Virus record (IMG/VR): IMGVR_UViG_3300042673_002653
Span: 1 to 50,295 of that record
Strand: one strand, 5' to 3'
Source: a virus
Length of the DNA stretch: 50,295 nucleotides
Below the pieces are notes generated by a model that saw only the letters and a list, made by a program, of their open reading frames with translations, ran no database searches and was not told the origin of the DNA. Made by a program: the position numbers and the translations under genes. Of the stretch, positions 14,100 to 47,704 are shown one piece after another (the stretch's first letter is position 1; each line of letters begins with the position of its first letter).

Positions 14100-14174
14100 A
14101 TCCGACTAGCTCAGCAGGTAGAGCGCCGGTCTCCAAAACCGGTTGGCGAGGTTCGAGTCCTCGGTCGGGTGCCA
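14100..14174 (+). tRNA. tRNA-Trp (anticodon CCA), CCA end encoded
   Basis: The cloverleaf folds fully: acceptor ATCCGAC (14100-14106) with GTCGGGT, D arm GCTC/GAGC, anticodon stem CCGGT/ACCGG with loop CTCCAAA and anticodon CCA at 14133-14135, T arm CGAGG/CCTCG with TTCGAGT loop, discriminator G at 14171 and encoded CCA at 14172-14174. It lies alone between the early terminator and terS, 15 nt before the terS start, inside the prophage. It would supplement host tRNA-Trp during late expression. Confidence 0.93.
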
Positions 14175-16175: not shown

Positions 16176-17539
16176 TGTGGTTCGGCGACCGCCTGGCCAA
16201 CCTCATCACGGCGATGGGCACGCAGAAGGACAAGGCCACCCGCACCCGGCACTACATGCGGGAGCTGGATCAGGGTTCGGCCCTGACCATGTATCGGTCG
16301 GACTGGATCGCCCGAAAGGTGGTGGACATACCGGCCTTCGACATGATCCGCGAGGGGCGGAACTGGCAGGCTGACGACGCTCACATCGAGGCGCTGGAGA
16401 AGGAAGAGGCCCGGCTGCAGATCTGGCCGAAGCTGGCCAAGGCGCTTGCTCTGGCCCGGCTCTACGGCGGCTCAGCCCTGGTCATGGGTGTCGGCACGGA
16501 CAACCCGGCAACCGAGCTCCGCCCCGAAAGTGTCCAGCAGGGCGGTCTGGCCTATGTCCACGTCGTCAGCCGATACGAGATCTCGGTTGGAGAAATCGAG
16601 AAGGACCCGGCCTCTCCCGGCTGGGGCGAGCCGACCTACTATTCGATGTCCGGTGCCCGGAGCGGATCGCTACGCATCCACCCCAGCCGGGTCATCCCGT
16701 TCATCGGGGCTGAACTACCCGACCTGACGTTCTCGCAGGGCTGGGGAGACTCGGTCCTGCAGGCCGTCGACGAGGCCATCGAGAACGCCGGGCTGGCTGG
16801 AACCGCTATCGCCCAGCTCCTCCAGGAAGCTAAGGTCGACGTCTTCAAGCTGAAGAACTTCATGGCCAACGTCGGTGACGAGGCCTACCGCGCCAAGGTC
16901 CTGACCCGCCTGAGCCTAGCTAACCAGGGCAAGTCTATCTCCAGCGCCCTCGTCATGGATGCCGAGGAAGAGTGGGACCAGAAGCAGATCAGTTTCGCTC
17001 AACTGCCCGAGGTGCTGCAGCTCTATCTCCAGATCGCCGCCGGCGCCGCCGACATCCCGGTAACCCGCCTGCTGGGCCAATCCCCGGCCGGCCTAAATAG
17101 CACCGGCGAGAGCGACGTCCGCAACTACTACGACCGCCTCGCCGCCGAGCAGAAGGTGAAGATCCGCCCCCGACTGGAGAAGCTGGACGCGGTTCTGATC
17201 CCCTCGGCCCTCGGCAGCCGCCCGGCCGAAATCCACTTCACCTTCGCCCCGCTGTGGCAGATCAGCGAGAAGGAGAAAGCGGACATCTTCAAGACCAAGG
17301 CGGACGGAGCGCGACAGTTGGCCGGCACCGGCGGTGCATCCCCGCCCCTCCTGCCCATCGAGGCGCTGTCGGATGCGCTCTGCAATACGTTCATTGAGGA
17401 CGGAAGTTTACCGGGCCTCGAGGCGGCGCTCGAAGAATATGGCCGGTTGTCGGAACAGGAAGACGACCCCGACGCCGACGCCGCTGCGTTGGGCGCGCGA
17501 GACCCGGAAACGCTGGAAGAGGAACCGGCCAAGGTGTAG
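16175..17539 (+). CDS. portal protein, DUF1073 family
   Basis: 454 residues of the DUF1073 portal family: YMRELDQGSALTMYRSDWIARKVVDIPAFDMIREGR, then ALALARLYGGSALVMGV, and VTRLLGQSPAGLNSTGESDVRNYYD. The portal dodecamer sits at one capsid vertex, anchors the terminase and then the tail. The same Pfam family is sometimes named after the anti-CBASS protein Acb1, but nothing here points to that enzyme; the gene follows terL directly. The C-terminus is acidic and low complexity. Confidence 0.92.
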   Translation: MWFGDRLANLITAMGTQKDKATRTRHYMRELDQGSALTMYRSDWIARKVVDIPAFDMIREGRNWQADDAHIEALEKEEARLQIWPKLAKALALARLYGGSALVMGVGTDNPATELRPESVQQGGLAYVHVVSRYEISVGEIEKDPASPGWGEPTYYSMSGARSGSLRIHPSRVIPFIGAELPDLTFSQGWGDSVLQAVDEAIENAGLAGTAIAQLLQEAKVDVFKLKNFMANVGDEAYRAKVLTRLSLANQGKSISSALVMDAEEEWDQKQISFAQLPEVLQLYLQIAAGAADIPVTRLLGQSPAGLNSTGESDVRNYYDRLAAEQKVKIRPRLEKLDAVLIPSALGSRPAEIHFTFAPLWQISEKEKADIFKTKADGARQLAGTGGASPPLLPIEALSDALCNTFIEDGSLPGLEAALEEYGRLSEQEDDPDADAAALGARDPETLEEEPAKV

Positions 17540-17546
17540 GATTAAC

Positions 17547-17606
17547 GGCCCCCCGGATGCGTCAACATCACGGGAGGCCTAGCCACCAACGATCGTGGAA
17601 GGATCG
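17547..17606 (+). promoter_or_regulatory. Structured 5' leader of HNH gene 1
   Basis: First hairpin: GGCC, C/A mismatch, CCCG/CGGG, then GATG/CATC closing loop CGTCAA (17560-17565), total 17547-17579. Second hairpin: CGATC (17590-17594) and GATCG (17602-17606) with the ribosome site GGAAG in the loop, just before ATG 17610. The same two hairpins recur before HNH genes 2 and 3 with compensating base changes. Confidence 0.75.
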
Positions 17607-17609
17607 ATA

Positions 17610-18203
17610 ATGGATACCGGCATCAATATGCCTGTGGACCGCCGCTGTGAAGCGTGTGGCGTCCAACTCGAACGCAAGACGGGCGAGAAGCCCGTTCACT
17701 GGAAGCGGCGTCGTTACTGCGGCCTGACATGTGGTCGGACCCACGGACGCAACCGCCAGCCCTTATCAGAACGGTTCTTCTCAAAGGTCGAGGTCACACC
17801 TGACTGCCACGAATGGCAGGGAGCCAAGGGTCGCGACGGATACGGCAGCATCGCCCTCGGAGACGGAACCACAGGTTTAGCCCACCGGGTGGCTTATGCG
17901 CTGGCCTTCGGCGAGATCGGTAACGGAGCCCAAGTACTTCACCGGTGCGACAATCCCGGTTGCGTGAACCCAGCCCACCTCTTTCTGGGCGACCACGCCG
18001 ACAACATGGCCGACATGGCCAGCAAGCAGCGCGGACGGTCAGCGATCGGAGCCGCTCACCATGCCGCGAAACTCAACGCGCCGAAGGTGAGGGCGATCCG
18101 AGCGGACACCCGAGAGCAGCGTGAGATCGCCGCCGACTACGGAGTCTCCCATGCGACAGTCGGCGCGATCCAGCGACGAGAAACTTGGAAGCACGTCGCT
18201 TAG
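17610..18203 (+). CDS. free-standing HNH homing endonuclease 1
   Basis: 197 residues. An N-terminal zinc-ribbon (CEACGVQLERK ... RRYCGLTCGRTHG) is followed by the HNH_3-type core: CHEWQGAKGRDGYGSI, HRVAYALAFGEI, VLHRCDNPGCVNPAHLFLG. The C-terminal HTH (AKLNAPKVRAIRADTREQRE, IAADYGVSHATVGAIQRRETW) binds DNA. The gene lies between portal and protease genes, an insertion typical for homing nucleases, and carries the conserved two-hairpin leader. ATG 17610 follows GGAAGG. Its 3' end overlaps the next short gene. Confidence 0.9.
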   Translation: MDTGINMPVDRRCEACGVQLERKTGEKPVHWKRRRYCGLTCGRTHGRNRQPLSERFFSKVEVTPDCHEWQGAKGRDGYGSIALGDGTTGLAHRVAYALAFGEIGNGAQVLHRCDNPGCVNPAHLFLGDHADNMADMASKQRGRSAIGAAHHAAKLNAPKVRAIRADTREQREIAADYGVSHATVGAIQRRETWKHVA

Positions 18204-18372
18204 CGTCGATCAGGTCGCTCAGCTTCTCTACCGGCTGGCGCGAGACCACCTGACCCGCGAGCAGATCGAAGCCGCCATCGCGGAGACCCGCCCCGAGGTC
18301 GCCGCCTTTACTGACGCTAAGCGCGGACGCTGGGCCGTCGAGCAGTCCCGCCGCCTCTCCCGCGAGACCTGA
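18151..18372 (+). CDS. hypothetical protein (73 aa)
   Basis: Unknown helical protein: SVDQVAQLLYRLARDHLTRE and EAAIAETRPEVAAFTDAKR. The likely start, ATG 18151, lies inside the end of HNH gene 1; ATG 18121 is also possible. If the HNH gene inserted here, the original start may have been replaced. The position between portal and protease suggests a small head-related protein, without direct evidence. Confidence 0.5.
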   Translation: MRQSARSSDEKLGSTSLSVDQVAQLLYRLARDHLTREQIEAAIAETRPEVAAFTDAKRGRWAVEQSRRLSRET

Positions 18373-18382
18373 GGACATCGCC

Positions 18383-19648
18383 ATGCAGTTCACGGACGCC
18401 GCGCCGATCGCAGGCGTGCGCCTGACCCGTGACGGTTACGCCGTCGCCGAGGTCCGCGCCGCCCGCACTGGCATTCAGCAATACGCAGGGCGTGAAGTCG
18501 GGCGGCCCGACCTAGCTGTGGTCAACGTCTACCGCCCGCCGGAAAGCGTGTTCGCGGCCGACAGCATGGCCAGCTACGGCTTCAAGCCGGTCACGATCAA
18601 TCATCCTGCCGAGGGCGTCACCGCGGACAGCTGGAAGGATCTGGCTGTCGGTGTCGTCGGTGGCGACGTGGTGCGGGATGGCGGCTTCGTGAAGGTCCCG
18701 CTGGCTCTGATGGACGCGGCGGCGATCAAGGCGGTGCAGGACGGCACCCGCGAGATCAGTATGGGCTACGTCTGCGACCTCGCCTTTGAGGACGGCGTGA
18801 CGCCCGAGGGCGAGCCGTATCAGGCCGTGCAGCGCGACATCCGCATCAATCACCTCGCGCTCGTGCCGTCAGGTCGCGCGGGGCCGCAGTGTCGTGTCGG
18901 GGACGCAAAGCCCGATCTGGCGAAGGCCAAAGGCAAGCTGAGAGCCGCTATAGCGCTCCACGAAAAGCACATGAACGGCAGCGCCCCCACGACGGGCAAG
19001 GCCGGAGAGAAGTCGCAACAAGCGATGATGGATTTGATGGAGGAGGCCCTCGCGGCCCTTTCTGGAGAGTCCGCTCGCAGCGGCATGGGGTCAATGGACG
19101 CGCACCCCTCCCAAGCGCTCTGTTCCACAGGAGACCGTCACATGACGCTCAAGACCATCGCCGTGGACGGCCTCCCGGTCGAAACCACGGACGCCGGCAT
19201 CGCAGCCATCGACAAGCTGCGCGGCCTTCTCTCCACCGCGGACGCCGCTTTGGCCACCGCCAACACCACTCACGCCCAAGCGCTCGCTGCCAAGGACGCC
19301 GATCTGGCGAAGAAGGACGCCGAGATCGCCGACCTGAAGACCAAGGTCATCGACGGCGCCGCTCTGGATGCTCTGGTCGCTGATCGCGCCGCAGTCGTCG
19401 CCAAGGCCAAGGCCCTGGACCCCAAGGTCGTGATCGACGGCAAGTCGAACGCCGAGATCAAACGGGCCGTCCTGGGTGACGCCGCCAAGGACAAGTCGGA
19501 CGCCTACGTGGACGCCGCCTTCGACCTGAAGACGGCCGATGCCCAAAGCGCCGACCCGCTGCGCAAGGTCATCTCCGACGGCGCTCCCAACGGCGGCGTC
19601 CACGTCGCTTCCATCCGCGACGCCGCGCGCGTCGCTGGCCTGAACTAA
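18383..19648 (+). CDS. DUF2213 prohead protease fused to scaffold
   Basis: 421 residues. Residues 1-190 are a DUF2213 domain (VRLTRDGYAVAEVRAARTG, VNVYRPPESVF, TINHPAEGVT, EISMGYVCDLAFEDG, INHLALVPSGRAG), a phage maturation protease fold. Residues 190-253 are a linker. From 254 on lies a scaffold-like helical region with a coiled-coil core (AALATANTTHAQALAAKDADLAKKDAEIADLK). An internal ATG at 19142 with its own ribosome site would give the scaffold alone. It precedes the cement and capsid genes in the usual order. Confidence 0.85.
   Translation: MQFTDAAPIAGVRLTRDGYAVAEVRAARTGIQQYAGREVGRPDLAVVNVYRPPESVFAADSMASYGFKPVTINHPAEGVTADSWKDLAVGVVGGDVVRDGGFVKVPLALMDAAAIKAVQDGTREISMGYVCDLAFEDGVTPEGEPYQAVQRDIRINHLALVPSGRAGPQCRVGDAKPDLAKAKGKLRAAIALHEKHMNGSAPTTGKAGEKSQQAMMDLMEEALAALSGESARSGMGSMDAHPSQALCSTGDRHMTLKTIAVDGLPVETTDAGIAAIDKLRGLLSTADAALATANTTHAQALAAKDADLAKKDAEIADLKTKVIDGAALDALVADRAAVVAKAKALDPKVVIDGKSNAEIKRAVLGDAAKDKSDAYVDAAFDLKTADAQSADPLRKVISDGAPNGGVHVASIRDAARVAGLN
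19142..19648 (+). CDS. nested scaffold protein from internal start
   Basis: In-frame ATG at 19142 (codon 254 of the protease gene) is preceded by AGGAG at 19129-19133 with 8-nt spacing. The product, 168 residues, begins MTLKTIAVDGLPVETTDAG and is the coiled-coil scaffold region alone. Lambda C/Nu3 uses the same arrangement, giving more free scaffold than protease. The sequence supports the start; production of the short form is inferred. Confidence 0.65.
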   Translation: MTLKTIAVDGLPVETTDAGIAAIDKLRGLLSTADAALATANTTHAQALAAKDADLAKKDAEIADLKTKVIDGAALDALVADRAAVVAKAKALDPKVVIDGKSNAEIKRAVLGDAAKDKSDAYVDAAFDLKTADAQSADPLRKVISDGAPNGGVHVASIRDAARVAGLN

Positions 19649-19660
19649 GGAGCCACGACA

Positions 19661-20134
19661 ATGGCAGTCAATCAGGACACCTACACTTCGGTCATGGCCG
19701 CGGGCTATCCCGGCATGATCGCCAACGGCGAGACCTCCAACCGCATTACGCGGACCTGTGAGGACTCGGCCGGCATTCAGTTCGGCGCTCCGGTCTATCG
19801 TGGCTCGGGCGACCACGGCTGCACGGCCACGGTCGGCACTGCGGCGACCTTCCTCGGCTTCGCCATCGCCCACGAGGCCCTCGGCCTTCTGAGCGGTCAG
19901 ACCGCCGACCGCTACCAGCAGTACGACAACGTCGCGATCCTGACCCAGGGCGTGATGTGGGTCACCGCAACCGGCGCCAACGTCGACGGCGCTGCCGTGA
20001 CGATCGGCACGGGCGGCGGCGCTGCTGACGCCATCGGAGACACCGCCGCCGACGCCACCCACATCGCCACCGGCGGCTGGGTGTTCGACGACACCACCTC
20101 TGCGACGGGCCTGGCCCGCATCGCCAAGCGCTAA
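19661..20134 (+). CDS. capsid cement / decoration protein
   Basis: 157 residues, beta-rich and Gly/Ala/Thr-rich. It begins MAVNQDTYTSVMAAGYPGMIANGETSNRIT and continues with DSAGIQFGAPVYRGSGDHG, a pattern of phage structural cement proteins (DUF2190-like). They bind the outer capsid lattice and stabilise expanded heads. It sits between scaffold and major capsid genes, 12 nt after one and 12 nt before the other, consistent with that job. Confidence 0.82.
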   Translation: MAVNQDTYTSVMAAGYPGMIANGETSNRITRTCEDSAGIQFGAPVYRGSGDHGCTATVGTAATFLGFAIAHEALGLLSGQTADRYQQYDNVAILTQGVMWVTATGANVDGAAVTIGTGGGAADAIGDTAADATHIATGGWVFDDTTSATGLARIAKR

Positions 20135-20146
20135 GGGGATCAGACC

Positions 20147-21238
20147 ATGATCATCAATTTCGCCGATGCGACCGGTGGCCTGTTCACCGACGCCGCATCC
20201 TTCCTCGCCGCCAGCGACAGCCAACGCGAGTTGGCCTTCCAACGCTGGGCCGCCTACGACGCCGCCCTCGCCGCCACCTTCGGCGACAAGGCCTCCGAGT
20301 TCTTCGTGGACGCCCAGGTCGGCCGCGCATTCCTGACCCCGCAGCTGTATCGGATCGAAACGCAGGTCTACCTGCGCCGCTATCCGAACGCCGACCTGAC
20401 CGGCCTTCTGCCGATCAACACGGACGGCGACATGTGGGACGTCGGCACGGTGTTCTACAGCATGGACGAAGCCGGCAAGGCCGAGTTCCTGAGCGGCAAG
20501 GGCTTCGACATGCCCTACGCCTCGACGCTGATGGACCAGAAGAGCCGCGGCTTCCACCTGGCCGGCATCGGCTACGAGTGGTCGACGCAGGAGCTTCAGC
20601 GCGCCGCCAAGCTGGGTCGTTCGCTGTCCGCTGACAAGGCCGCCGCCGCCCGCAAGGCCGCGCAGTTCTTCAAGCGCTCTATCGCCATGACCGGCCGCGC
20701 GCCGGGCACTGCGGCGAGCGAGAAGGGCTGGACCGGCTTCGTGAACGATCCGAACGTCCCGACCGCCAACGTCGCGGCCGACGGCACCGGCTCGACCACG
20801 CCCTGGGCCGGCAAGACCCCGGACCAGATCAGCCGGGACATTTGGGGCGCCGTCAACGCGGTCGAGCAGCAGACCGGCGAGACCCACACCGCAACCACGG
20901 TGGCCCTGCCGACTGAGAAGCTGCGCTACATCGAGCAGACCCGCATGTCGGACACCGGCTCGACCATCCTGGCCTACATCCGCGGCAACCGGGACGGTGG
21001 CGACAACATCGTCTTCAAGCCGATCCGCGAACTGAAGGGCGCCGGCGCTTCGGGCACCGACCGCCTGGCGGCCTACGACTCCTCGGAAGAGGTCGTCCAG
21101 TTCCACCTGCCGGGCGACCACGAGTTCCTGCCCGCGTTCCAGAAGTCGTCCATGACCTACGACGTCGGCGGCATCATGAACGTCGGCGGGACCGAGGTTC
21201 GCCTGCCCAAGGCCATCACCTATCGCGACGGGATCTGA
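20147..21238 (+). CDS. major capsid protein, DUF2184-like
   Basis: 363 residues, HK97-type by context. Recognisable features of the DUF2184-type major capsid proteins are LMDQKSRGFHLAGIGYEWS, RKAAQFFKRSIAMTGRAPG, and the C-terminal SSMTYDVGGIMNVGGTEVRLP. Several hundred copies form the icosahedral shell. The gene has the strong codon preference of a highly expressed protein. It follows the cement gene and precedes a small acidic protein. Confidence 0.88.
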   Translation: MIINFADATGGLFTDAASFLAASDSQRELAFQRWAAYDAALAATFGDKASEFFVDAQVGRAFLTPQLYRIETQVYLRRYPNADLTGLLPINTDGDMWDVGTVFYSMDEAGKAEFLSGKGFDMPYASTLMDQKSRGFHLAGIGYEWSTQELQRAAKLGRSLSADKAAAARKAAQFFKRSIAMTGRAPGTAASEKGWTGFVNDPNVPTANVAADGTGSTTPWAGKTPDQISRDIWGAVNAVEQQTGETHTATTVALPTEKLRYIEQTRMSDTGSTILAYIRGNRDGGDNIVFKPIRELKGAGASGTDRLAAYDSSEEVVQFHLPGDHEFLPAFQKSSMTYDVGGIMNVGGTEVRLPKAITYRDGI

Positions 21239-21241
21239 GCC

Positions 21242-21487
21242 ATGACCAAGCTGACCAACTACACCCCCGGCCCCAAGGGCGTGCACACCGAGGACCAGGG
21301 TCTGATCTACATCGGCGGCGGCCAGACCAGCGAGGACCTGAACATCAGCGACGGCGAACTGAAGGCGGCCAAGGCCACCGGCTGGTTCTCCAAGCAGAAG
21401 GACCCGCTGGACCACGACGACGACGGCAAGAAGGGCGGGGCCGCTCCGGCGCCCGACGCCCCGAAGCCTGAACCGACGAAGGCCTGA
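21242..21487 (+). CDS. small hypothetical structural-region protein (81 aa)
   Basis: 81 residues: a compact N-terminal part (TPGPKGVHTEDQGLIYIGGG) and a long acidic-then-proline/alanine tail. It starts 3 nt after the capsid stop. Such small proteins next to capsid genes may be head-completion or capsid accessory proteins; I cannot name the family. It is followed by a terminator-like hairpin and the antisense HNH gene. Confidence 0.7.
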   Translation: MTKLTNYTPGPKGVHTEDQGLIYIGGGQTSEDLNISDGELKAAKATGWFSKQKDPLDHDDDGKKGGAAPAPDAPKPEPTKA

Positions 21488-21504
21488 CCGATGGCCGGGC
21501 ATGG

Positions 21505-21527
21505 AGGCGGGGGTTAAGCCCCCGTCT
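21505..21527. terminator. Hairpin between convergent capsid-region and HNH genes
   Basis: AGGCGGGGG (21505-21513) pairs with CCCCCGTCT (21519-21527), nine pairs with one G-U, loop TTAAG. It ends at the stop codon of the antisense HNH gene. It could stop HNH transcription leftward. On the plus strand it stands in the middle of the late operon, so late polymerase must read through it. Confidence 0.6.
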
Positions 21528-22091
21528 CTAGTCCGACCAGCTCTCACCGCGCTGTATGCGTCCAACCTGAGACTGACCAACGCCGAACTCAGCGCCAACG
21601 TCCACTTGCCGGGCCTTGCCCTTCATCGACCGGATGTATTCGACTGCCTCTGGTGACAGCTTGGCGGTTGGAGACGTCGATCCGGAATACTGAGTACCGT
21701 GAAGAATTCGGTCCGCCGCGTTCTCCTTGGCCGACGCCCATCGCAGATGTCTTGGATGGACGCAGCCGTCAGGCCCTCTGCCGCAAGAATGGGCGGCGTG
21801 ATCAGTTGCCGACGGTGCCGGGCCGTTCACCATCTCGCACATCACTCGGTGGCCGCTGGTATTCTGATACTTCGCGTAGCCAGAGGGCAGCCGGGCGAAA
21901 GGCCAGATTAGGCAGTCATCTCCTTGGTGGGATGAGTGCTCAGCGAGCCACGCGGCTGGTCCGCCGTTACCGACCTTGCCGCCTAACGGATCACCGTGGT
22001 CGCGCCACCGACGGCTGTGTATGCGGCAGAAGTTGTTGCTGTGGTGCGGCTTGCCGCAGTCCGGCACAGAACATAGACGAGCGATAGCCAT
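21528..22091 (-). CDS. free-standing HNH homing endonuclease 2 (antisense to late genes)
   Basis: 187 residues. One N-terminal zinc-finger-like unit (CSVPDCGKPHHSNNFCRIHSRRW) is followed by the HNH core: DCLIWPFARLPSGYAKY, GHRVMCEMVNGPAP, HSCGRGPDGCVHPRHLRWA, and the C-terminal HTH (PTAKLSPEAVEYIRS, VGAEFGVGQSQVGRIQRGE). It lies on the minus strand between a capsid-region gene and the connector gene. Its leader shares the two-hairpin fold and the sequence around the ribosome site with HNH genes 1 and 3. Expression must come from its own leftward promoter, not seen clearly. Confidence 0.9.
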   Translation of the reverse strand: MAIARLCSVPDCGKPHHSNNFCRIHSRRWRDHGDPLGGKVGNGGPAAWLAEHSSHQGDDCLIWPFARLPSGYAKYQNTSGHRVMCEMVNGPAPSATDHAAHSCGRGPDGCVHPRHLRWASAKENAADRILHGTQYSGSTSPTAKLSPEAVEYIRSMKGKARQVDVGAEFGVGQSQVGRIQRGESWSD

Positions 22092-22093
22092 TT

Positions 22094-22154
22094 CGACCTC
22101 TCAACAGGTTGGCTTGGTTAGGACCCGTCGAGAGGTAGGATGCTCGGCGGGTCC
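22094..22154 (-). promoter_or_regulatory. Structured 5' leader of HNH gene 2
   Basis: On the minus strand, GGACCCG (22154-22148) pairs with CGGGTCC (22127-22121), then a C/A mismatch, then CGAG/CTCG, with a 10-nt loop. Then CCTAACC and a second hairpin CAACC (22111-22107) with GGTCG (22098-22094) holding GAGA in the loop, three bases before ATG. The loop of the first hairpin differs from leaders 1 and 3. Confidence 0.65.
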
Positions 22155-22185
22155 GGCATTTTACCCCAATGGACAGGGGTATCCA

Positions 22186-22599
22186 ATGGCTCAACACGGA
22201 ACAGAGCAAGGCTTCACGGACTGGCTCGCAGCTCGCGGCCATGACCTGCCCGATGGCGCCCCCAGCCCGGCCATTCTTCTCCAGCGAGCGACCGACTACC
22301 TCGATGCAGTCTACGGTGCCCGGCTGGCCAATGCCGAGGCATCGGACGCTCTGGACCTCGCCCTGGAGCGCGCGACCTACGCCGCCGCCTGGCATGAGGC
22401 GCAGAACCCCGGCTCGCTGTCTGTGTCGGTCGTTGCATCGCAACAGGTGAAGCGCGAGAAGATCGACGTCATCGAGACCGAGTATTTCCAAGGGACTGGC
22501 GGGGCTCTGGCCACGGCAACGCCGCAGCTGTCGCTCGTGGATGGTATCCTCGCCCCGTTCCTCGACAAGCCCGCCCTGCCCGCCGTCTTCGTGGTCTGA
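22186..22599 (+). CDS. DnaT-like / head-tail connector-type protein
   Basis: 137 residues. The N-terminal GTEQGFTDWLAARGHDLPDG and RATDYLDAVYGARL match the phage family named 'DnaT-like ssDNA-binding protein', which occurs regularly between capsid and tail genes and probably works as a head-tail connector. A hydrophobic helix-turn core (ALERATYAAAWHEAQNPG) follows. ATG 22186 is chosen; longer forms would run back through the antisense HNH gene. Its stop overlaps the next ATG. Confidence 0.75.
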   Translation: MAQHGTEQGFTDWLAARGHDLPDGAPSPAILLQRATDYLDAVYGARLANAEASDALDLALERATYAAAWHEAQNPGSLSVSVVASQQVKREKIDVIETEYFQGTGGALATATPQLSLVDGILAPFLDKPALPAVFVV

Positions 22600-22964
22600 T
22601 GACCGCCTTCGACTATTCCCGCCCCCTCGCCACGGCGAACCAGCTGATCGAGCGCTACGGCCAGCTCGGGGCGGTTGAGACGCCGGGCGAGCGCATGGGC
22701 CCTGCCTATGACCCCGGCGAGCCGGTCCCGACGTCCACCCCTGCCCGCTTCGTCATCGTCGGCTTCGAGGCCAAGGAGATCGACGGTTCGCGGGTCCTTG
22801 CTACCGACAAGAAGGCCCTGGTCGCGCCCGGCGTGCTGACCGCCGATCCGACCCCCGCAGACCGCCTGGTTGAAGCGAACGGCGTCTCGTGGTCCATTGT
22901 CGGCGTCGATACCCTTCGGCCGGCGGAGACGACTCTGCTGTTTACTTTGCAGGTGCGCCGATGA
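22599..22964 (+). CDS. head-tail joining / head completion protein
   Basis: 121 residues, beta-rich: VPTSTPARFVIVGFEAKEID, LATDKKALVAPGV, WSIVGVDTLRPAETTLLFTLQVRR. The pattern is that of small head completion or adaptor proteins between connector and tail genes in siphoviruses. Assignment is by position and general shape; its start overlaps the previous stop and its own stop overlaps the next ATG. Confidence 0.65.
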   Translation: MTAFDYSRPLATANQLIERYGQLGAVETPGERMGPAYDPGEPVPTSTPARFVIVGFEAKEIDGSRVLATDKKALVAPGVLTADPTPADRLVEANGVSWSIVGVDTLRPAETTLLFTLQVRR

Positions 22965-23119
22965 CCCCAGAAGATCTGGATGCCCTAAAGAGGGATGCTG
23001 CCCGGTATCGCTGGCTACGTGACGACAACGCATACGCACCGGAAGAAGGTCATGTGCGGGGCGGCGAAGAATTGGATGCCCTCTGCGATGAAGGCCTAGC
23101 CGAGGAAGCTGACCGATGA
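22961..23119 (+). CDS. small hypothetical protein (52 aa)
   Basis: 52 acidic residues, MTPEDLDALKRDAARYRWLRDD in the N-terminal half. The RDAARYRWLRD pattern is common in short phage proteins of unknown function. ATGA overlap with the preceding gene, and 4-nt overlap with the next. No function suggested. Confidence 0.65.
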   Translation: MTPEDLDALKRDAARYRWLRDDNAYAPEEGHVRGGEELDALCDEGLAEEADR

Positions 23120-23298
23120 TCGCGACCATCGTAGCTCGTCACTCCCCGCAAGACGTCGCCCTCACCCGAGCGATGACGAAGAACCATGTCGTCCGCACCG
23201 ATAGCGACAACACCCGCGTCCACTACAGGGCGACGGAGCGCCGTTGGAACCCGCAGTCGCGCGAAGCCCGCTTCGTTCTGGAACCCATCTCGGCGTGA
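23116..23298 (+). CDS. small hypothetical protein (60 aa)
   Basis: 60 basic residues with no known motif (MIATIVARHSPQDVALTRAM). It is joined to its neighbours by 4-nt overlaps: ATGA with the gene before, GTGA with the gene after. Part of the short-gene cluster between the connector and the minor head protein. Confidence 0.55.
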   Translation: MIATIVARHSPQDVALTRAMTKNHVVRTDSDNTRVHYRATERRWNPQSREARFVLEPISA

Positions 23299-23501
23299 CC
23301 GCCCATCGGGGCAAGGCCATCCTCGCCGCTGCGGCGTGGAAAGACCTGAACGCCAAGTCGGCGAACTATCAGGCTGCGATCCTCCGGGGCGATGACGAGA
23401 CGGCCAAGGCCATCCGTCAGGAAGCCCACGACATCCTCGACACCCACCTCGACCTGTCAGGCGAAGTCGCCCAGGCCGCGCTGGACATCCTCAAGGACTG
23501 A
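23295..23501 (+). CDS. small hypothetical protein (68 aa)
   Basis: 68 residues, helical: KAILAAAAWKDLNAKSANYQ and LDTHLDLSGEVAQAALDIL. GTG 23295, overlapping the previous stop, gives the compact form; an ATG 51 nt upstream is less likely. Function unknown. Confidence 0.55.
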   Translation: MTAHRGKAILAAAAWKDLNAKSANYQAAILRGDDETAKAIRQEAHDILDTHLDLSGEVAQAALDILKD

Positions 23502-23504
23502 CCC

Positions 23505-24539
23505 TTGGCCAGAACCCGAGTGCAACGGCAGCTCTATGCCGAGCTGCTGGAGCGCTATGGGCGCGCGGTCGCAGACGCGTTTTTCAAGGCGATCGACGAC
23601 ATCAGGAAAGCCGCATCGCTCCAGGCTGTGACCGCAGCGATCGAAGCCGGGGACATCGAAGGCGCGCTCGATGCTCTGGACATCGATCCAGCCGCCTTCA
23701 ACGACATGCTGGACCGGATCAAGGACGCCCAGACGGCCGGGGGCAACTATAGCACCGAGACGATGCCGAAGCGGCGCCCGGACGGGACAGCCTTCACGGT
23801 GCGCTGGGATGGTCGGGCGGTTGAGGCCGAAAGCTGGATGCGCCAGCACGCCGCCGATCTCGTCACCCACACGACGCAGGACATGCGCGAGGCGGCTCGG
23901 CAATCGCTCGTCGCCAGCCTCGAACGTGGCGACAACCCCAAACGCGCCGGCCTCGAACTTGTCGGACGCATCAACCGGGTGACCGGGAAAAGGACCGGTG
24001 GAACCCTGGGGCTGTCGGTGCCTCAAGAGGAATATGTGCGGAGAGCCAGAGAAGAACTGGCCTCTACGTCGCCGGACTTCATGTCCAACTACCTCGGCCG
24101 TAAACGGCGGGACAGAAGGTTCGATAGATCTGTCGCGAAGGCCATCAGGGAGGGCAAGCCGGTCCCACCGGAGATCGCCGCGAAAGCGATTACAGCCTAT
24201 TCGAACCGACTACTCCAGTTGCGGGGCGAGACGATAGGCAGGCACGAGGCCTTCGCAGCGCTCTCAGCGGGCAGGCAGCAGGCCTACGAGCAGGCGGTCG
24301 CCTCGGGAAAGATTACTGCGGCAGCAGTAACGAAGAGCTGGCGTCACTTGTCGAGTCTGGACTACCGACCCGATCATCGCCTGATGAACGGTAAGGGCGT
24401 GGGCCTGATGGAGAGCTTCGTTCTGCCGGACGGTACGACGATGCTTTACCCGCACGACTCATCGGCCCCGATCAAACACACCGTCGGATGCCGGTGCCAA
24501 GCTGATTACAAAGTCGATTTTCTGGCCGGGATCAGGTAG
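23505..24539 (+). CDS. minor head / head morphogenesis protein (Mu F-like)
   Basis: 344 residues. The C-terminal third, GRHEAFAALSAGRQQAYEQA, TKSWRHLSSLDYRPDHRLMNGKG, and APIKHTVGCRCQADYKVDF, is the phage head morphogenesis signature (Mu gpF/SPP1 gp7-like), with cysteine pair CRC near the end. The N-terminal half is helical and binds the portal in relatives. TTG 23505 with AAGGA upstream is the likely start. It lies just before HNH gene 3. Confidence 0.85.
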   Translation: MARTRVQRQLYAELLERYGRAVADAFFKAIDDIRKAASLQAVTAAIEAGDIEGALDALDIDPAAFNDMLDRIKDAQTAGGNYSTETMPKRRPDGTAFTVRWDGRAVEAESWMRQHAADLVTHTTQDMREAARQSLVASLERGDNPKRAGLELVGRINRVTGKRTGGTLGLSVPQEEYVRRAREELASTSPDFMSNYLGRKRRDRRFDRSVAKAIREGKPVPPEIAAKAITAYSNRLLQLRGETIGRHEAFAALSAGRQQAYEQAVASGKITAAAVTKSWRHLSSLDYRPDHRLMNGKGVGLMESFVLPDGTTMLYPHDSSAPIKHTVGCRCQADYKVDFLAGIR

Positions 24540-24547
24540 TCTGAAAC

Positions 24548-24608
24548 GGGCCGAAGCGGTGCGTCAACACCGGCTCCGGCCCTAACCGAAACGACCATTG
24601 GAGGGTCG
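24548..24608 (+). promoter_or_regulatory. Structured 5' leader of HNH gene 3
   Basis: First hairpin: GGGCCG/CGGCCC (24548-24553, 24577-24582), internal loop AA/TC, GC/GC, then GGTG/CACC closing loop CGTCAA (24562-24567). Second hairpin: CGACC (24592-24596) with GGTCG (24604-24608), loop ATTGGAG holding the ribosome site. Loop CGTCAA is identical to leader 1 while the pairs around it differ but still match. Confidence 0.75.
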
Positions 24609-24610
24609 AT

Positions 24611-25435
24611 ATGGCTGATCGAGCGATATGCTCCGTCGAGGGTTGCGGCAAGCCCTCAGAGCGCCGTGAATGGTGCAGCAAACACTATCAGCGCTGGAAG
24701 CGTCACGGCAGCGCGACCCAGACCCATAGGTATGAGGGGCAGCGATGCTCCATTGTCGACTGCGAGCGCCCGGCGCGGGCTTACGGCCTCTGCGGCACGC
24801 ACAACATGCGAATCCGCCGACATGGCGACCCACACGCCCATCCAGCGGTCCGCCGTTTCGGGTGTCTGGTGAAGGACTGTGATCGGGAGCACGCGTCGCG
24901 GGGCTACTGCAAACTCCATTACGACCGCGTCCTCACGACCGGCGATCCTCAAGCTGACGTGCCGCCAAGGATTGCGCCGGGTACTCGCGTCCAGTGGCTT
25001 CTCGACCACATTGATCATCGCGGCGAGGCCTGCCTGATCTGGCCGTTCAGCCGCGACCACAATGGGTATGGCAGGATCACGGATGAAGGAGTCCAGAGAT
25101 CGGCTTCCAGAACCATGTGCGCGCTGGTCAACGGCCCGCCCGAGGTCAGCCGCCTGCAGTCAGCGCACAACTGTGGTCAGGGCCACACCGGCTGCGTACA
25201 TCCTCAGCATCTGCGCTGGGATACTTGCGGCGGCAACCACGCCGACAAAGCCCTGCACGGCACAGAGATCAAGGGCGAGGATCAGTGGCAGGCACGGCTC
25301 ACCGAGGCCGATGTCCACTACATTCGCAGCCAGCGCGGGATCGCGAAGCAGAGCGATCTGGCGGCTCGGTTCGGAATCAATCAGACGTCCATAAGCAAGG
25401 TTCAACGCCGCGTCGCGTGGGCTTGGCTCGAGTGA
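24611..25435 (+). CDS. free-standing HNH homing endonuclease 3 with triplicated zinc-finger unit
   Basis: 274 residues. Three consecutive Cys/His units open the protein: CSVEGCGKPSERREWCSKHY (residues 7-26), CSIVDCERPARAYGLCGTHN (46-65), CLVKDCDREHASRGYCKLHY (85-104). Each has C-x4-C-x9-C-x2-H. The HNH core follows (ACLIWPFSRDHNGYGRI, HNCGQGHTGCVHPQHLRWD) and a C-terminal HTH (LAARFGINQTSISKVQRR). It lies between the head morphogenesis and tail completion genes. Closest relative in the window is HNH gene 2, which has one finger unit only. Confidence 0.9.
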   Translation: MADRAICSVEGCGKPSERREWCSKHYQRWKRHGSATQTHRYEGQRCSIVDCERPARAYGLCGTHNMRIRRHGDPHAHPAVRRFGCLVKDCDREHASRGYCKLHYDRVLTTGDPQADVPPRIAPGTRVQWLLDHIDHRGEACLIWPFSRDHNGYGRITDEGVQRSASRTMCALVNGPPEVSRLQSAHNCGQGHTGCVHPQHLRWDTCGGNHADKALHGTEIKGEDQWQARLTEADVHYIRSQRGIAKQSDLAARFGINQTSISKVQRRVAWAWLE

Positions 25436-45683: not shown

Positions 45684-47303
45684 TCAGCGCGAAAACAGCG
45701 AACGCTGCGCATCCCAGCTCAGCGGCAAGTCGGTGGCGCGAAGGGTGCTCAGCGTCATGCGCGGGCCCTGTCGACCGTCGAGGATCGCGCGCTGCAGATC
45801 GGGCGCCAGGAACGCCAGGGCGAGCAGCCGGCGATCGTATTGAGTATCGTGTTTGATGCCGACGGAGGGATCGGCGCGCCAGGCTCTGAGCCGGGCATGG
45901 GCGGTCTGAAGCGCCCGGATCAGACGGGTATCGTGGCGGGCGGTCAGTTGGCCGGGTTGGCCTTCGGCGGTCAGGAACTCTGTGCGGCCTCCCGACAGCT
46001 TGGGGCTGACGGCGATGGCCAGTTTGATGCGATCGTCGCCATCCTTCCATACCCGCTCGTCGTTCGCCGCGCGCCGCAGCAGTCGTTCCACCGCGCTTTC
46101 CGGATCGAGCGTCCATCCCGGGATCTGATCCGCCGCCAGGGAGATCACCAGGTGGGTCGGGCTGGTATCGACCCTGGCGACCACACCCTGAGGGAAGGCC
46201 GGCACGCCGGGGCAGAGGCGTTCCACCCGGTCGCGGATCAGCGTCTCGAGCGGAACCGCGCTGATCCGGCGAACAGAGTTATCGTCCCGGGCTCCGACCG
46301 ACTGCCCACGCTGGACGGTGCTGCTCACATAGTAGCGATAGCTTCGACCGTGACGGTTGCTGTTGGCCACCGGGCTCATCACGTCGCCATCGGCGTCGAA
46401 CAGGATGCCCTTCAGCGGCGCCGTGGCGGTCTGGGGCTGGCGCTTCGCCCGGGCCTTGGTCCGCGACCGGGCCAGCATCGCCTGGACCGCCTCAAAGGTC
46501 TCGCGGTCGATCAGGGCGGTATGGGCGCCCGGATAGTAGGTCTCGTTGTGCGGGACCTCGCCGAGGTAGAGCCGGTTCTTCAGGAGATGGAACAGAGCGC
46601 CGCGCGTGAAGGCCACCCCGCCGCGCTCACGACCGCTCTGGAAGACCATGTGCTTGGTCACGACGCCGTCGGCCGTCAGGGCCTTCGCCAGGAGATGAAC
46701 CGAGCCGATCTCGAGATAGCGCTGGAAGATGAGACGCACCGTCTCGGCCTCCACCGCGTTGACCACCAAAGCCCGGGTCGTGGGATCGGTCGGCGGGTCG
46801 TATCCGAGCGGCAGGGTTCCCCCCATCCACATCCCCTTCTTCTTGGACGCCGCGATCTTGTCGCGGATCCGCTCGCCGGTGACCTCGCGTTCGAACTGGG
46901 CGAAGGACAGGAGCACGTTCAGCGTCAGCCGGCCCATGGACGAGGTGGTGTTGAACGCCTGGGTCACCGAGACGAAGCTGACGCCCTGGGCATCGAACTG
47001 CTCGACGATACGAGCGAAGTCGCCGAGCGATCGGGTCAGACGGTCCACCTTATAGACGACCACCACATCGATCCTCTTGGCCTTGATCGCCGCCAGCAAA
47101 CGCACCAGCGCCGGCCGCTCCATGGAGCCGCCGGAGAAGCCGCCGTCGTCATAGATCTCCGGCGAGGCGACCCAACCCTCCCCGGCCTGAGAGAGCACAT
47201 AGGCCTCGCAGGCCTCACGTTGAGCATGCAGGCTGTTGAAGGCCTGATCCAGCCCCTCTTCCGAGCTCTTTCTGGTGTAGATGGCGCAGCGGATCGCCTT
47301 CAT
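45684..47303 (-). CDS. large serine recombinase
   Basis: 539 residues. Resolvase domain: RCAIYTRKSSEEGLDQAFNS with catalytic Ser13, then VVVVYKVDRLTRSLGDFARI. Recombinase domain: GTLPLGYDPPTDPTTRALVV, FTRGALFHLLKNRLYLGEV. The place of the usual zinc ribbon has LKGILFDADGDVMSPVANSN and RSYRYYVSSTVQRG without cysteines, a variant that goes with DUF2924 neighbours. It integrates or excises DNA through a Ser-linked double-strand cut. ATG 47303 overlaps the DUF2924 stop. Confidence 0.92.
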   Translation of the reverse strand: MKAIRCAIYTRKSSEEGLDQAFNSLHAQREACEAYVLSQAGEGWVASPEIYDDGGFSGGSMERPALVRLLAAIKAKRIDVVVVYKVDRLTRSLGDFARIVEQFDAQGVSFVSVTQAFNTTSSMGRLTLNVLLSFAQFEREVTGERIRDKIAASKKKGMWMGGTLPLGYDPPTDPTTRALVVNAVEAETVRLIFQRYLEIGSVHLLAKALTADGVVTKHMVFQSGRERGGVAFTRGALFHLLKNRLYLGEVPHNETYYPGAHTALIDRETFEAVQAMLARSRTKARAKRQPQTATAPLKGILFDADGDVMSPVANSNRHGRSYRYYVSSTVQRGQSVGARDDNSVRRISAVPLETLIRDRVERLCPGVPAFPQGVVARVDTSPTHLVISLAADQIPGWTLDPESAVERLLRRAANDERVWKDGDDRIKLAIAVSPKLSGGRTEFLTAEGQPGQLTARHDTRLIRALQTAHARLRAWRADPSVGIKHDTQYDRRLLALAFLAPDLQRAILDGRQGPRMTLSTLRATDLPLSWDAQRSLFSR

Positions 47304-47704
47304 CGAGTGGGCGCCTCGCCGAGGCCGAAGAAGCGCCAGCCGTTCCATCTGGCGCCAGTGATCCGAGACGCCACCGTCGAGAGCGACCGGTAGGTCTGTC
47401 CCTCATGCCGATAGCCCTCGGCGACCACCTCCACCTCGTGGCGCACGCCCTTCCACTCGCGGCTCAATCGCGAGCCGATCGGCGGCTTGGCCCGGCTTCC
47501 GACCGGCTGGGATCGTCGAAGGGCGTCTCGGGTCGCCCGGTCCAGACCGCCGAAGGCGGCGGCCTGAAGTTCCCAGGCGATCAGTCGTCGCATCAACCCG
47601 ACCGAGCGTGTGCCCGGTCGGGTTCCAAAAGCGGGTCTCCAGACCTTGGCCAGGTCCTCGAGGTCCATGGCGTCCAGGGCCGAAAGCTCGGCGTCCAGGC
47701 TCAT
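47300..47704 (-). CDS. DUF2924 protein
   Basis: 134 residues. SALDAMDLEDLAKVWRPAFG, RRLIAWELQAAAFGGLDRAT and GWRFFGLGEAPTR are the DUF2924 pattern. The family almost always stands directly upstream of a serine recombinase and downstream of DUF3489, as here, with 4-nt overlaps on both sides. Probably a recombination directionality or target factor. Function is not established. Confidence 0.88.
   Translation of the reverse strand: MSLDAELSALDAMDLEDLAKVWRPAFGTRPGTRSVGLMRRLIAWELQAAAFGGLDRATRDALRRSQPVGSRAKPPIGSRLSREWKGVRHEVEVVAEGYRHEGQTYRSLSTVASRITGARWNGWRFFGLGEAPTR

Follow-up and report, generated by a model that had tools for sequence, protein, structure and literature searches.

Free-standing HNH genes of a phage probably carry a SymR-type antisense RNA cassette at their 5' ends

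SymR of E. coli (Rfam family RF01809) is the antisense partner of symE in an SOS-linked type I toxin-antitoxin pair and covers the 5' end of its target mRNA with about 77 nt. The promoter of SymR lies inside symE, and the RNA is a proven repressor of symE translation (PMC1891008). Post-transcriptional restraint of homing endonucleases, which we also propose here, is described for I-TevI and segB of T4 and mobE of Aeh1, where hairpins exert the control (PMC2988022). Unlike the leaders reported below, the T4 hairpins are formed by self-folding of a single strand, with neither an antisense RNA nor a shared cassette.

We analyzed a stretch of 50,295 nt of viral DNA (IMG/VR record IMGVR_UViG_3300042673_002653, referred to as the window) which contains three free-standing HNH genes. 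The leaders of these genes resemble the symE/SymR locus: a predicted antisense RNA lies over the mRNA 5' end, its predicted promoter is located within the ORF, and both loci have two hairpins, a loop of the GUGCGCCAACAC type and an equal position relative to the start codon. The sequences show the family, the folding strand, the promoter position and an architecture in common with symE/SymR; the target of SymR, however, is SymE with its AbrB fold and not a homing endonuclease. We consider it very likely that a cis-antisense RNA cassette of the SymR type accompanies each HNH gene and represses its translation. The RNA class is known. Its use on homing endonucleases of phages seems to be new, as a search of the open-access literature found no paper linking SymR-type RNAs to such enzymes.

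Table 1. Positions of leaders, predicted RNA hairpins, promoter elements and HNH genes in the window
Feature	Position	Strand	Remarks
Leader 1, whole model match, sense	17543..17615	+	43.3 bits, E=2.2e-8; complement is the predicted antisense RNA
Leader 2, whole model match, sense	22086..22158	-	31.9 bits, E=9.1e-6; loop unlike the CGTCAA type
Leader 3, whole model match, sense	24544..24616	+	73.4 bits, E=2.7e-15
Hairpin 1 of predicted antisense RNA 1	17547..17579	-	antisense loop UUGACG, U-turn type; sense loop CGTCAA, closed by GATG/CATC
Hairpin 2 of predicted antisense RNA 1 (CGATC/GATCG)	17590..17606	-	covers Shine-Dalgarno; HNH-1 ATG at 17610
Leader 2 hairpin and second stem	22154-22121; 22112-22093	- (sense)	HNH-2 ATG at 22091
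Hairpin 1 of predicted antisense RNA 3	24548..24582	-	antisense loop UUGACG; sense loop CGTCAA, closed by GGTG/CACC
Hairpin 2 of predicted antisense RNA 3 (CGACC/GGTCG)	24592..24608	-	covers Shine-Dalgarno; HNH-3 ATG at 24611
Predicted antisense promoter 1, inside HNH-1	17625..17651	-	-35 TTCACA (17651-17646), 15-bp spacer, -10 CATATT (17630-17625); top 0.02% of window sites; at the family-wide peak
Predicted antisense promoter 2, inside HNH-2	22051..22079	+	-35 TTGCCG (22051-22056), 17-bp spacer, -10 TAGACG (22074-22079); top 0.19% of window sites
Predicted antisense promoter 3, inside HNH-3	24623..24651	-	-35 TTGCCG (24651-24646), 17-bp spacer, -10 TATCGC (24628-24623); top 0.35% of window sites
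Sense -10-like TAGGAT, leader 1	17537..17542	+	overlaps portal stop codon; consensus score in top 0.04% of window
Sense -10 TAAAAT, leader 2	22158..22163	-	highest-scoring sense site of the three leaders
Weak sense -10-like TAGTCT, leader 3	24537..24542	+	top 0.13% of window
HNH-1, 197 aa, HNH_3 family	17610..18203	+	Pfam HNH_3 3.8e-11; PHROG endonuclease
HNH-2, 187 aa	21528..22091	-	PHROG HNH endonuclease 7.9e-12; weak Pfam HNH_3
HNH-3, 274 aa	24611..25435	+	PHROG HNH endonuclease 1.8e-23

A covariance model built from 60 leaders outside the window, with none from the window itself, found exactly three sites in the 50-kb window (Table 1), and the runner-up reached 8.3 bits (E=2.4). The kinship of the three leaders is thus genuine and not a product of chance. 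The hairpins described in the initial annotation are present at the positions it gave, and the loop common to leaders 1 and 3, the compensating stem changes, the C/A mismatches and the CCTAACC segment were all found as described there. Nearly all dinucleotide shuffles were less stable than the sense folds of the three leaders (z -3.1, -4.1 and -3.0). Leader 2 retains the second stem and the CCTAACC segment, but as a sense RNA it prefers a fold outside the family, which pairs CCUCUCGAC with GUUGAGAGG instead of forming the two family hairpins. The antisense RNA of leader 2 (plus strand) forms stem 2 and a hairpin of 12 bp, and clean two-hairpin folds were obtained for the antisense strands of all three leaders. 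For leader 1 the antisense hairpin fold amounts to -37.5 kcal/mol, compared with -28.2 kcal/mol for a similar sense stretch.

Pfam and PHROG comparisons identified the HNH catalytic motif in the HNH genes of the window; HNH-3 is homologous to HNH-2 and has additional Cys/His repeats at the N-terminus. The junction between the portal and DUF2213 genes contains a leader plus HNH unit in the window and in contigs L192, L193 and L204, where the HNH gene of L204 belongs to a different family, and is empty in L191, L196, L198, L201, L203 and L207. This absence of a free-standing insertion from related genomes was found for the HNH-1 site only. The portal relatives in L189, L190, L194 and L195 have a C-terminal extension which the portal protein of the window lacks, and in L190 (4848-5315) the portal is fused to the anti-CBASS protein Acb1 (Pfam 1.2e-44). 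Elsewhere in the window a tRNA-Trp (CCA) gene is located directly upstream of the terminase gene (14100-14174), and a serine recombinase/integrase-type gene (45684-47348, minus strand; PHROG integrase 3.3e-96) suggests that the phage is temperate.

The strand on which the structure is maintained was deduced from the base pairs. Folding of the sense strand would permit G.U pairs in the stems, and A.C on one strand is G.U on the complement. As a MAFFT alignment mis-registers both stems, sequence-anchored arms and model-fitted alignments were used for the pair tests instead; any lean of the model-fitted alignments favours G.U over A.C. Relative to shuffled partners, the outer stem contained Watson-Crick pairs at 1.49 times the expected frequency, A.C at 0.90, G.U at 0.18 and other mismatches at 0.08; the corresponding ratios for stem 2 were 2.31, 0.64, 0.24 and 0.24. 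The endonuclease leaders alone showed 132 Watson-Crick, 18 A.C, no G.U and 6 other pairs. Sequence-anchored pairs of hairpin 1 covary strongly in leaders beyond the three of the window, and this covariation almost never takes the G.U form. Since the stems tolerate A.C and not G.U, the C/A mismatches noticed earlier, such as the one in leader 1, are G.U pairs of the antisense strand. The antisense fold was the more stable one in 136 of 137 leaders, with a mean difference of -10.3 kcal/mol (coding controls +0.08, shuffled leaders -4.2 kcal/mol), and base composition explains about 4 kcal/mol of it. Both the tolerated pairs and the energies point to structural selection on the antisense strand, and together with the promoters described below they identify it as the predicted folding RNA. 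The conserved, covarying regulatory RNA postulated for the HNH genes recurs widely (see below), but the strand that folds is the opposite one.

A predicted promoter inside the ORF, directed backwards, is a property shared with SymR. In dissimilar genes, a -10 and a -35 element in reverse orientation are conserved at ORF bases +14 to +19 and +36 to +41, respectively. The mean antisense sigma70-like score over 69 such genes peaks at a single offset (z 6.2), where 25 of the best antisense sites are located (1.7 expected); with endonucleases alone, 7 of 29 best sites coincide with this offset (0.7 expected, P=4.5e-6). Leaders 2 and 3 have predicted antisense promoters that fit E. coli sigma70 poorly, and the -35 element TTGCCG overlaps the codons for a conserved Cys-Gly-Lys motif of that HNH family. 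On the sense strand, a family-wide -10 peak lies immediately before the hairpin. The A-tract 5' of the hairpin, which corresponds to the U-tract ending the predicted antisense RNA, overlaps a sense -10 element.

Comparison with Rfam at gathering thresholds detected only the tRNA in the window. The minus strand of leader 3 matched symR with 27 bits (E=0.07; cut-off 61), and leaders 1 and 2 gave no match to this family. A higher score, still under the cut-off, was obtained for the antisense strand of L124 (44.5 bits, E=3.8e-5). In the reverse direction, the phage-built model recovered symR of E. coli K-12 at its annotated position with 33.9 bits. The model match reaches ATGGCT, and the predicted antisense RNA overlaps the Shine-Dalgarno sequence and the start codon. 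Both TAACC and ATGGCT are nearly invariant, with two double changes, one of which is the combination found in E. coli symE; a helix between them in the antisense RNA would account for this near-invariance, although they show almost no covariation. ptaRNA1 (RF01811), a plasmid-transferred antisense RNA described with other targets, gave no match at E<=1 in the window record. In one Burkholderiales genome, two ptaRNA1 matches, one of them above the Rfam cut-off, coincide with model hits on the opposite strand. The antisense RNA of R1162/RSF1010 (RF00043), which controls a plasmid replication gene, had no match in the window and resembles the leaders of some relatives only below threshold, including CCUAACC..GAGG..AUGGCU. 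The C4 antisense family was considered as well, as Rha/Bro antirepressors lie downstream of some leaders, and was rejected; an insignificant c4-a1b1 match elsewhere was the only one in Rfam.

Leaders of this type are widespread and occur upstream of further HNH genes, as the search with the covariance model confirmed. The pattern GGTGCGYYAACACC-N6-20-CCTAACC had 61 matches in viral contigs, where a rough estimate predicts a few by chance, and nearly all of them possess the outer GGCC stem, a second hairpin bearing the Shine-Dalgarno sequence, and ATGGCT. The same search of a genome collection yielded 37 more in Proteobacteria, Acidobacteria, Streptomyces and others, and the 60 leaders used for the covariance model were drawn from these matches. 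With seeds excluded, model hits occurred in 7 of 149 genomes of Caulobacterales and in 16 of 298 of Pseudomonadota; a single genome had as many as six. Among isolates, Rhizobium phage RHph_Y1_10 and Pseudanabaena phage Pam1 have it upstream of annotated HNH genes, and the model added Synechococcus phage Yong-M3-232; megablast of the leader region against phage records gave zero matches. A relative of HNH-2 in L003 (46% identical) has a leader with the loop CGCTAA. Leaders found by the model only are located in L003 (335-407, minus strand), L005 (1834-1908, plus strand), L133 (8589-8661) and L141 (14276-14352), and several phage contigs contain more than one cassette.

Of 46 distinct viral proteins encoded downstream, each scanned singly, 35 are endonucleases according to PHROG or Pfam (HNH of several families, endonuclease VII-like, GIY-YIG and T5orf172); the remainder comprises TnpB, RadC, Rha, Bro-N and seven proteins with no match. 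Chromosomal leaders precede Rha/KilAC antirepressor, integrase, Cas1 and SymE toxin genes, the latter with Pfam SymE_toxin values of 7.8e-19 and 2.4e-7 behind model-found leaders. In contrast, of 82 HNH-1-like loci nearly all are without the leader. The assumption that it travels with one HNH family is not supported: as unrelated genes follow it and most HNH-1-like loci do without it, the leader is a module and not a trait of one family. TnpB/OrfB genes with an antisense-type leader at the 5' end occur in L110 (1718-2858) and L163 (Methylorubrum rhodesianum), and in L167 (4627-5393, an Acidobacteria bin) a stand-alone Cas1-like gene lies behind a leader (Pfam Cas1 6.4e-21).

A terminal AA is present in 43 of the 59 loops of leaders found by the model, a further 10 have TT at the start, i.e. 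the reverse polarity, and the middle is free. The loop of leader 2 is atypical and has no clear U-turn motif. At the HNH-1 insertion site of L192 the loop GATGTTGACGCATC is the exact reverse complement of GATGCGTCAACATC in leader 1; the hairpin tip (L192 4861-4931) is inverted relative to the window, and template switching inside the inverted repeat is the probable cause. Partners such as hok/Sok and other pairs are known to recognize each other by kissing loops with a U-turn (YUNR; PMC6562991), and the loop pattern fits such a recognition with the U-turn on either partner.

In the mechanism we propose, the mRNA would start from the sense promoter directly upstream of hairpin 1, and the backward promoter in HNH codons 5 to 14 would yield an antisense transcript about 75 nt long, which passes the start codon and the Shine-Dalgarno sequence with hairpin 2, continues through hairpin 1 and ends at the short U-tract. 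Folded as two stable hairpins, this RNA would contact the mRNA through the complementary loop of hairpin 1, with a U-turn on one partner of the kissing loops, and spreading of the duplex over the ribosome site would block translation. Because silencer and target share one DNA, the nuclease would be held low, and the antisense RNA probably keeps potentially harmful homing genes off. The nuclease would appear only if sense transcription outruns the antisense RNA, possibly where transcription of the head-gene operon reads through, or if the gene enters a cell devoid of the antisense RNA. Production of this RNA in the phage, repression of translation and the timing of relief are parts of the model that we infer.

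Three other explanations have to be weighed against an antisense RNA. The initial annotation drew a parallel to T4-type control, in which a hairpin of the mRNA itself masks the Shine-Dalgarno sequence, so that translation occurs from certain transcripts only and a second RNA is not needed. The location of this sequence inside hairpin 2 and the stability of the sense folds relative to shuffles agree with it, but stems which avoid G.U and accept A.C are the opposite of what folding of the mRNA strand would leave behind, and the family hairpins are missing from the sense fold of leader 2. It also leaves the conserved backward promoter unexplained, and T4 hairpins are gene-specific, whereas the leader cassette is common to unrelated genes. 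Control of the T4 type is improbable and comes second to the antisense reading.

Even less probable is an element that acts as DNA and has no role as RNA, the inverted repeats of a mobile HNH unit serving as its recognition or homing site or forming part of its insertion boundary. The joint presence or absence of leader and HNH gene at the portal/DUF2213 junction speaks for this reading; however, inverted repeats for such a purpose require no register with Shine-Dalgarno sequence, start codon or promoter, the strand-asymmetric pair tolerance and the symR match would be unexplained, and the leader is also found before SymE, integrase, Rha and Cas1 genes. A guide-type RNA aiming the nuclease, as with OMEGA/HEARO nucleases, is hardly credible: the RNA does adjoin nuclease genes, one of them TnpB (L110), but it has no variable guide segment, overlaps the start codon, lies beside non-nucleases too and is homologous to symR, and Rfam gave zero matches to any OMEGA/HEARO family. 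No evidence was found for the suggested assistance in targeting.

An antisense silencer matched to its target would be a direct and testable answer, beyond the case of T4, to how temperate phages bear DNA-cutting selfish genes unharmed. It recurs across many phages and joins separately described antisense RNAs into one family. As each leader falls below the Rfam thresholds, the commonest phage use of this family had escaped notice. A broader reading, which we put forward tentatively and regard as rather doubtful, is that SymR, ptaRNA1 and probably the R1162 RNA represent one mobile antisense cassette, adopted by many unrelated homing-endonuclease genes which then act like type I toxin-antitoxin modules, and that a diversifying loop with the U-turn on either strand sets specificity. 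A resident prophage could then silence only those incoming nuclease genes that have a matching loop.

Genome G282 (L252, L265, L271, L272 and L273) contains five near-identical leaders, each in front of a 7-codon ORF, MALWIIR. The stem of these paralogues is kept and the loops differ (CGCCAA, CAGCAA, CACGAA and CCGGAAA). The short ORFs might encode a leader peptide serving some downstream gene, or might be part of a reading-frame trick.
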